The notes beneath the pieces were generated by a model that saw only the letters and a program-made list of their open reading frames with translations, was not told the origin of the DNA and searched no databases. Positions 53,321 through 54,817 of a stretch of 64,000 nucleotides of DNA are shown here, one piece after another; position 1 is the stretch's first letter; each line of letters begins with the position of its first letter. The translations under genes and the position numbers were made by a program. Source of the DNA: Listeria sp. PSOL-1 (GTDB lineage Bacteria; Bacillota; Bacilli; Lactobacillales; Listeriaceae); the NCBI RefSeq assembly GCF_902806445.1, contig NZ_LR760298.1, positions 620,001-684,000 on the forward strand. The letters run 5' to 3'.

Positions 53321-54142
53321 TTATTTTTTATGCTCATTCACGATTTTTTCAAATTCTTTTTCTTGTTTTTCCATTTCTTTTACCTCGGGGTGTTTATTCA
53401 TATAAAGCTTTTTCGATAGCCAAGTTTGGCCAGCAAGGAAAATTCCACCAACAGCCCAATAAAGTGCTAAAGCTGAAGGGGCAGAGAATGAAATGAATAA
53501 AATCATTGCTGGGCTAATTAAACCAATGATTTGCATTTGCTTTTTTTGTTCAGGTGTGTAACCAATCATTGTTACAAAATATTGACCTAAATAAACAAGA
53601 CCAGCAATAACTGCCAAAATGGTATCTGGATGACCAAGGCTAAACCATAAGAAGTTATGGCTAGCAATTTCAGAAGAACTACGAATCGCGTAATAAAACG
53701 CCATTAAAATAGGCATTTGAATAATAATTGGTAAGCAGCCCATCTGCATTGGATTAATATCATATTTTTTATAAACGGTGACCATTTCTTGTTGAATGGA
53801 TGTTTGTTCTTCTTTTGTAGTTGCCCGTTTTAGCCGTGCTTGAATGTCATCAATTTCAGGTTTGGCAACGGCCATTTTTGATTGCATTGTCATTTGTGCT
53901 TTAGCTGTTCTTAAATTTAGCGGCAAGATAATTGCGCGAATAATAAGCGTTGTAATGATGATTGCAATGCCATAATTGTCGCCAAAGAAAGAAGCGACAA
54001 ATTTAATAAACGTGGTAAATGGTTGGATTAAATAAACGTTAAAAAAGCCATCTGAGTTTTGTGACGGATCAAGCCCACAACCTGAAAGGACACCTAGTGA
54101 AATAACAAGTATGGCAATTAAAATAAGATTTTTTTTCTTCAA
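53321..54142 (-). CDS. yidC: Membrane protein insertase YidC, lipoprotein type
   Basis: Oxa1/YidC insertase of 273 residues that helps proteins enter the membrane. A lipoprotein signal ends LGVLSGCG (lipobox Cys), and five membrane segments follow; [18 protein letters not shown] is the cytoplasmic coiled region. Lm has two YidC homologues; this is the YidC2-like one by gene order. The TTG start is 10 bases from AGGAGGAA. That ribosome site can be hidden by pairing with the end of the ORF at 54181, see there. Confidence 0.93.
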
Positions 54143-54148
54143 TATTTT

Positions 54149-54195
54149 TGTTCCTCCTACTAACTAAAATAAATTCCTTTTTAGTAAAAAGAACA
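54149..54195 (-). promoter_or_regulatory. RNA stem that can hide the yidC ribosome-binding site
   Basis: On the minus strand the last 15 bases of the upstream ORF (TGTTCTTTTTACTAA, plus 54181-54195) are fully complementary, with three G-U pairs, to TTAGTAGGAGGAACA (plus 54149-54163), which contains the yidC ribosome site. The loop is 17 bases. A ribosome paused on the acidic codons just before this arm would hold the stem open. Structure seen in sequence; function inferred. Confidence 0.75.
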
Positions 54196-54456
54196 ACTGT
54201 CTTCTTCATCATCAAATTGATTTTTCTTAAAAGTAATAACAAGCCAGCTAAGAATAAAATTATTGAGTATGACATGTTTTAATTTAATATACAAAAGTGA
54301 AACCCTGGAAAGACAAATGGCTTCTGTATGCAGTAACATTGTCGGTTTTAAGAAACTAATAGCAGGCCAAAACCGGAACAAAGACAACATTAGAAGAAGC
54401 GTAACGGTCATCGAAAGATATTCCGGTTCAAAAAACATTTGGAATAAGATGATCAA
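54181..54456 (-). CDS. Probable MifM-like regulatory (arrest) peptide for yidC
   Basis: A 91-codon ORF between the minus-strand promoter and yidC. TTG start at 54456 with AGAAGGGAG 10 bases upstream. The N-terminal half is hydrophobic (residues 17-37, membrane-segment-like); a second hydrophobic run (about 62-77, including SWLVITF) is followed by KKNQFDDEED and only five more residues. B. subtilis MifM (95 aa) also precedes yidC2 and stalls at an acidic DEED segment. No clear sequence identity beyond that and a Trp, so this is called from architecture. The shadow frame on the plus strand is much poorer. Confidence 0.68.
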   Translation of the reverse strand: MIILFQMFFEPEYLSMTVTLLLMLSLFRFWPAISFLKPTMLLHTEAICLSRVSLLYIKLKHVILNNFILSWLVITFKKNQFDDEEDSCSFY

Positions 54457-54498
54457 TAAAAGCAGGCTCCCTTCTGTTAAAGAATTAATTACCCATTA

Positions 54499-54527
54499 AC
54501 TATAATTCAAACGGCTAAGGAATTCAA
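54499..54527 (-). promoter_or_regulatory. Promoter of the arrest-peptide ORF and yidC
   Basis: On the minus strand TTGAAT (plus 54522-54527), 17 bp, TATAGT (plus 54499-54504). Start predicted near 54492, so the yidC transcript carries the 91-codon ORF. Confidence 0.75.
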
Positions 54528-54535
54528 GTCGAAAT

Positions 54536-54817
54536 TTAATAGATAATATCAAATGTTTTTCTAGCTTCAACAGGCGCTCCCATATAAATATAGACGTGCT
54601 CAATCCGGCAAGCTGGAGAAGGGCCTTTTTTTATTATTTCAATAAATTGTTCAAGTTTTTTTTCTTCAGCACGCGCATAAATTTCAACAGATCCATCTTC
54701 TAGGTTTTTAACGGTACCACTGATATCATATTTATAAGCCACTTGTTTTGTTGAATAGCGAAATCCTACACCTTGAACTAAACCGGTTATACGCAAAATA
54801 GCCGTTTGGACTGTCAT
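54536..54817 (-). CDS. acyP: Acylphosphatase
   Basis: A 93-residue enzyme that hydrolyses carboxyl-phosphate bonds. The [16 protein letters not shown] motif carries the phosphate-binding Arg, and [15 protein letters not shown] carries the catalytic Asn. Strong site GAGGATGAG before the ATG. It reads out from the same divergent region as DUF1033, and its stop is near the promoter of the 54181 ORF. Confidence 0.93.

Follow-up and report, generated by a model that had tools for sequence, protein, structure and literature searches.

Does the short reading frame that precedes the second yidC gene of Listeria sp. PSOL-1 encode a regulatory arrest peptide? The question was raised by a stretch of 64,000 nucleotides (nt; hereafter the window), positions 620001–684000 of contig NZ_LR760298.1 in a genome of 2.10 Mb. 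On its minus strand, a 91-codon upstream open reading frame (uORF; 54181..54456, TTG start, TAA stop included) lies directly ahead of a yidC2-type membrane insertase gene, and a preliminary description of this DNA had read the pair as a switch similar to that of MifM in Bacillus subtilis. We regard the uORF product, with a probability of roughly 0.8, as a candidate YidC-monitoring arrest peptide of the MifM type, which would induce yidC2 by opening a hairpin that masks its Shine–Dalgarno (SD) sequence. The MifM-like reading is backed by the conservation of the open reading frame (ORF), by a co-varying stem next to the acidic codons, by a SpoIIIJ-type yidC elsewhere in the genome, and by the spacing between the transmembrane (TM) segment and the acidic residues. 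From this sequence comparison we infer that the ribosome would stall, that insertion would release it, and that yidC2 would be regulated in this way.

The leader peptide and its orthologues

A uORF homologue was found directly ahead of the yidC ribosome site, on the same strand, in all 34 genomes of the Listeria set, which comprised the window genome, 24 genomes of the same genus, and 9 of a sister genus. In a protein search of 60 genomes, it was matched with E-values of 1.4e-10 or lower in 25/25 genomes of the window's genus and 9/9 of the sister genus; the other 26 genomes, including two of a third genus of Listeriaceae, gave weak matches or none (best E-value of 0.0077). A separate scan of named records yielded 20 uORF loci, all of them from Listeria, ranging from L. 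ilorinensis to L. grayi. The frame is under purifying selection: the ratio of nonsynonymous to synonymous substitution rates was 0.05–0.38 in 11 of 12 pairs, and the twelfth pair was saturated.

The N-terminal half of the peptide is hydrophobic, and tryptophans occupy positions 30 and 71, where the preliminary description had mentioned one Trp. The acidic segment DDEED (residues 82–86; 54199..54213) precedes the stop by five residues, as had been claimed. A Trp and an acidic run are kept in all 34 peptides; thus, the conservation of the frame and its acidic segment in related Listeria, proposed earlier as a check, was confirmed. At least two acidic residues were present at positions W+10 to W+16 in all 33 tabulated loci (the Listeria set minus locus L034, which has TDDE). 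W71 and D83 were invariant in an alignment of eight Listeria peptides with three uORFs of other Bacilli, and the candidate arrest module spans W71...D86 (WLVITFKKNQFDDEED; 54199..54246). Residues Q6, P11, V18, T19, W30, K37, P38, and M40 were invariant in the N-terminal part of ten aligned peptides. The mean frequency of the top residue among 17 less redundant sequences was 0.65 in the N-terminal part and 0.59 in the C-terminal block, with 0.39 in the linker.

The most hydrophobic 18 residues (18–35; 54352..54405, Kyte–Doolittle window) form a predicted N-out/C-in membrane segment. In the 33 loci, Lys and Arg numbered 0–1 before the TM segment and 1–4 after it, a bias that fits this hydropathy-based prediction, and 46–52 residues separated the TM end from the first acidic residue.

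The promoter claimed for the uORF and yidC is present, with its –35 element TTGAAT at 54522..54527 and its –10 element TATAGT, 17 nt away, at 54499..54504. Across Listeria it reads as TTG, a 20-nt gap, and TATAGTTA in 32 of the 34 loci; L007 has TATAGTAA and L034 is truncated. The uORF has its own ribosome-binding site, as previously noted (AAGGGAG, 54467..54473, 10 nt upstream of the start); in orthologues the corresponding site mostly reads AAAGGAG or AAGGAG, with an ATG or GTG start 8–12 nt past it in most loci. The orthologous starts support the TTG start of the window uORF. In the draft contig carrying L034 (G033:C14), the uORF frame opens within the TM segment and encodes 73 residues, with a T-run just upstream.

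Two genes of the window genome match PF02096. The one in the window (53321..54142, 273 residues, TTG start at 54142; 5.6e-39 against PF02096) scores lower; the other, at C1:1919195, scores higher and follows an rnpA-like ORF. The rnpA-adjacent position is that of SpoIIIJ, and the yidC at C1:1919195 is of the SpoIIIJ type. Judged by score, both kinds of yidC also occur in the other 33 Listeria genomes, a few of which have one of the copies split. In two drafts, the yidC2 domain match falls into two pieces (G032:C2:531645-532209 and G034:C4:182450-183014), where the frame looks broken, by error or for real. The two genomes of the third genus have a single yidC behind an rnpA-like ORF, and no uORF was seen there.

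Pairing between the uORF end and the yidC2 ribosome site

In the minimum free energy (MFE) fold of the window locus, computed from close to the acidic codons up to the start of yidC, the end of the uORF (5' arm, 54196–54181) pairs with 54163–54148 (3' arm), which includes the yidC2 ribosome-binding site AGGAGG (54153..54158); both arms are also supported by co-variation. The stem has 16 bp with three G-U pairs. The preliminary description had the pairing and the G-U count right, while giving the length as 15 bp. The ribosome site lies 22 nt past the uORF stop. In 32/33 loci, the exception being L. costaricensis, three or more of the six SD bases had partners on the ORF side, taken to extend to 6 nt beyond the stop. 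The 5' arm starts close to the last acidic codon, from 1 nt ahead of it to 12 nt past it, in 29/33 loci, and further upstream in the remaining four (L002, L003, L031, L033). A ribosome reaches about 15 nt downstream of its P site; by coordinates, if the P site were on D86 in the window, 11 of the 16 bases of the arm would lie under the ribosome.

The stem arms were exchanged among ten representatives, chosen by us at roughly one per clade. Cognate arms averaged –14.9 kcal/mol and swapped arms –11.1 kcal/mol (permutation p = 2e-5), and the advantage persisted when the window sequence was left out (p = 0.0004). When the 36-nt window used for the leader was shifted upstream, p was 0.0044 at 24 nt past the start of the Trp codon, and 0.15–0.999 at the nine positions lying 12 nt past it or further upstream. 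Pair tables revealed two-sided changes, such as U-A/A-U and U-A/C-G at positions 10–12 from the SD. The compensatory changes that had been suggested as a check among relatives were thus found. The arms co-evolve, and this is confined to windows that extend as far as the acidic codons or past them; compensatory evolution of the stem has, on this comparison, good support. In another comparison, synonymous codons were shuffled while the encoded peptide was kept, and the cost of opening the SD was higher in the native sequence than the shuffled mean in 34/34 loci.

Several results weigh against a selected stem. For the window, p against synonymous shuffles was 0.207 for the SD-opening cost and 0.43 for the MFE, so in the window alone the stem is within what the encoded peptide would give. 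Single-locus p values for SD opening ranged only from 0.023 to 0.367 over the 34 loci, and the native MFE of the whole stretch was not clearly below that of the shuffles (p from 0.003 to 0.523). In the swap test, a 3' arm had its own leader as strictly the best partner in four of ten cases; one was tied and five were beaten, by leaders from another clade, often that of a close relative, and L. costaricensis lacked good cognate pairing. The swap-test signal is therefore an effect of averages. The MFE fold of L. costaricensis lacks SD pairing and that of L. ilorinensis pairs in another register. It is the cross-species comparison, not the window alone, that leads us to consider the stem not due to chance; an SD-masking stem ahead of yidC, one of the marks of the MifM family, is present in silico, with co-variation.

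By peptide identity, L. costaricensis and L. ilorinensis (L003 and L002, respectively) are nearest to the window, and their SD-masking stem has been lost or shifted. In their MFE folds, codons overlapping the acidic segment are paired with the region of the yidC2 GTG start.

Ancestry of the peptide and the L22 tip

The preliminary description left it open whether the peptide is a very diverged MifM or a convergent one. The evidence leans towards divergence with respect to MifM-like uORFs at large, although kinship with B. subtilis MifM itself appears weaker and is not proven. The best sign of kinship comes from running a profile built only from Listeria sequences blindly over 398 Bacilli genomes (E ≤ 0.1, no positional information). 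It gave 27 matches in 25 genomes, namely the strong match of the window and 26 weak ones, and three of the 26 lay directly ahead of a yidC (L038, L057, and L061, with E-values of 0.015, 0.041, and 0.085). Since the profile was blind to position, we take these hits as probable kinship, although similarity of composition, with an acidic tail, a Trp, and a basic pair, may also play a part.

Another survey started from yidC and took in 56 of the 398 genomes; these carried at least two yidC genes and were picked at close to one genome per genus. Of the 50 upstream regions retrieved, 38 lay outside the window's order (in 37 genomes), 9 belonged to the order (drawn from 24 genomes of its other families), and 3 were rnpA-side controls. 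The 38 outside regions consisted of 31 YidC2-like by score and 7 second SpoIIIJ-like loci; a uORF with a TM segment and an acidic tail was seen by eye in 15 of the 31, one genus contributing two, and in 7/7 of the latter, and none in the rest. Altogether, 24 uORFs of other Bacilli were carried forward, including the three blind matches. One of the survey uORFs, L110, carries RITTWI...NDDED and is plainly a MifM of the B. subtilis type. The uORFs before the second SpoIIIJ-like copies (L131–L137) are of another type: they have an acidic tail and, in several cases, an RK(I/V)P-like stretch, and they possibly represent another branch of acidic arrest peptides. In six loci (L098, L106, L109, L115, L092, L096), the uORF frame extends beyond the ribosome site of yidC into the earliest possible start of that gene; the ribosome site there encodes a GG-containing stretch within the peptide.

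Comparison of the Listeria uORFs with those of other Bacilli by hhalign gave 59.5–84.5%. Two nulls never reached the real score (0/200 each); a shuffle of 25-column blocks reached it in 12/200, a null with implausibly high maxima, to which we give little weight. A profile of 11 uORFs and MifM residues 31–94 retrieved the window ORF at E = 6e-6, with the next of 516 at 0.033; this value is partly circular, because 3 of the 12 profile rows were found through Listeria, and we have accordingly set our estimates for homology and for the explanation as a whole slightly lower.

The reading of the peptide as MifM is weakened by several further results. Profiles built without the uORFs found through Listeria ranked the window ORF 3, 1, and 2 of 516 (E-values of 0.18, 0.0069, and 0.35). 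The Listeria profile scored only 4.3 bits against B. subtilis MifM 31–94, under several chance ORFs. MifM arrest is reported to rely on R69, I70, M80, and N81 (PMC4423224), and these residues are not conserved in the Listeria peptides. The exact set R69, I70, W73, I74, M80, N81, and DEED was not matched, only the Trp and the acidic run being clearly kept; F76, K77, and N79 of the window resemble F78, R79, and N81 of MifM but vary across Listeria. When the arrest residues of B. subtilis MifM were searched for as a literal DNA pattern, 0/398 Bacilli genomes matched. PMC10987492 defines its MifM cluster by sequence clustering, local negative charge, and a localisation signal, and for this reason we did not treat the exact B. 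subtilis residues as defining.

These observations also speak for the peptide being a YidC-monitoring arrest peptide of separate origin: the match to B. subtilis MifM is weak, the key residues differ, Listeria-independent profiles do not clearly single out the window ORF, and one null equalled the hhalign score. Besides, unrelated arrest peptides ahead of yidC are known, CliM and ApcA (PMC13183943, PMC10987492). Such convergence concerns ancestry only and is compatible with the mechanism proposed here; we consider it unlikely, though it deserves to be taken seriously. We failed to find a significant family for the uORF or its alignments in Pfam, NCBIfam, Rfam, or PDB, where the best Pfam match, FixS (E = 0.19), was below the cut-off.

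A further difficulty for a MifM-type arrest lies in ribosomal protein L22. Its residue 90, Met in B. subtilis and Lys in E. coli, is described in PMC4423224 as governing MifM stalling, and support of stalling is considered unlikely there in lineages with Arg, Gln, Lys, or His at this position. L22 was read in 29 of the 34 Listeria genomes, the window's included. Position 90 is Gln in the window genome and in 18 other genomes of the genus, L. grayi excepted, where it is Lys and the tip is altered as well (L162); it is Met in 9/9 genomes of the sister genus. The uORF is retained in 29/29 of these genomes. This persistence with Gln, Met, or Lys at position 90 is the new angle offered by Listeria. 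A link between residue 90 and the peptide was also sought in the 24 uORF-bearing genomes outside Listeriaceae (17 with Met, 7 with Gln) and was not found, with no obvious peptide change matching Gln or Met. Either the Listeria peptides have been re-tuned in their contacts, or Gln and Lys may be tolerated in their context. Tentatively, we propose a re-tuned MifM in the Listeriae, working with Q90, M90, or K90 tips through mid-tunnel contacts other than RI/MN, an idea that we hold to be less probable than its negation. If it is true, these pairs of peptide and tunnel are a natural co-evolution series of escape from the species barrier. The Listeria series offers a direct test of the limit on MifM-type arrest that the B. 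subtilis mutants imply for L22 residue 90.

Mechanism, alternatives, and known systems

The proposed switch would operate as follows. The uORF would be translated off its own promoter, its N-terminal hydrophobic segment being passed to the YidC insertases. With prompt insertion, pull on the nascent chain would release the arrest and the ribosome would complete the uORF, after which its last codons could re-pair with the yidC2 ribosome site and keep yidC2 low. With scarce YidC capacity, W...FKKN...DDEED in the exit tunnel would hold the ribosome at or just past the acidic codons; sitting on the 5' arm, it would leave AGGAGG exposed, and yidC2 would be made. If this is true, a well-studied Gram-positive genus gains self-adjusting control of its second membrane insertase.

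Plain translational coupling would require neither programmed arrest nor YidC sensing, since a stem at the ORF end could be melted by any ribosome arriving there, and yidC2 output would then simply follow uORF translation. It would suit L. fleischmannii (L004), whose uORF stop falls within the SD of yidC. This reading leaves unexplained both the retention of the Trp and the acidic run in 34/34 peptides while the linker varies (0.39 versus 0.65 and 0.59) and the kinship with uORFs ahead of yidC elsewhere, and we find it improbable. Still less probable is a stable small membrane protein partnering YidC2, with the stem as a separate control element: the hydrophobic N-terminal half with its invariant residues would suit it, but the stem start is tied to the last acidic codon in 29/33 loci, coupling peptide and RNA, and the B. 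subtilis gene at the same place encodes an arrest peptide. Transcription attenuation was set aside on reading the sequence, with no U-run past the stem (no terminator scan was run), and a short hydrophobic type I toxin was ruled out by length, synteny, and relatedness.

The minus-strand order is acyP-like gene, promoter, uORF, and yidC, with a two-component pair, judged by eye, beyond yidC on the opposite strand. The upstream neighbour (54536..54817) is an acylphosphatase-like gene, putatively acyP. In the nine within-order loci of the survey, an acylphosphatase-like ORF precedes yidC2 and no MifM-like ORF was seen by eye between them. Listeria thus shares this neighbour, the candidate switch having been either gained or kept.

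Among the papers listed on MifM, arrest peptides, and yidC/SpoIIIJ with Listeria, we found no account of a Listeria yidC2 switch. The term Listeria did not occur in the arrest-peptide papers searched, and term searches of PMC10710512 and PMC8079631 gave nothing on the uORF–yidC2 locus. At the same time, the novelty implied by the preliminary description was overrated: uORFs of the MifM family are already catalogued widely in Firmicutes, the MifM cluster of Fujiwara et al. 2024 comprising 572 sequences from 592 Firmicutes genomes, taken from annotated uORFs (PMC10987492). The main text of that article does not mention Listeria, which may already be listed in its supplements.

With CliM of Clostridium kluyveri, as described in PMC13183943, the candidate would share YidC monitoring, an SD-masking stem, an N-terminal TM segment, and a place before yidC2. 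Neither the CliM (uC_KYxIW) motif K-Y-x-I-W nor the ApcA/RAPP-type motif RAPP/RAPG/RAGP was seen by eye at the C-termini of the 34 Listeria peptides. The candidate differs from B. subtilis MifM by the absence of R69/I70/M80/N81, the non-significant direct match, Gln in place of Met at L22 position 90, and the location of the uORF between an acyP-like gene and yidC2. With the MifM cluster, as characterised in PMC10987492, it has in common the place upstream of yidC, an acidic segment near residues 75–95, and an N-terminal localisation signal; the median spacer between TM segment and arrest site is given there as 54. With B. subtilis MifM itself (YqzJ, ahead of yidC2 = yqjG) it shares the position before the second yidC, the length of about 95 residues, the N-terminal membrane segment, a C-terminal Trp 11–13 residues ahead of an acidic run near the stop, the stem over the yidC SD, and a SpoIIIJ-type YidC encoded elsewhere in the genome.
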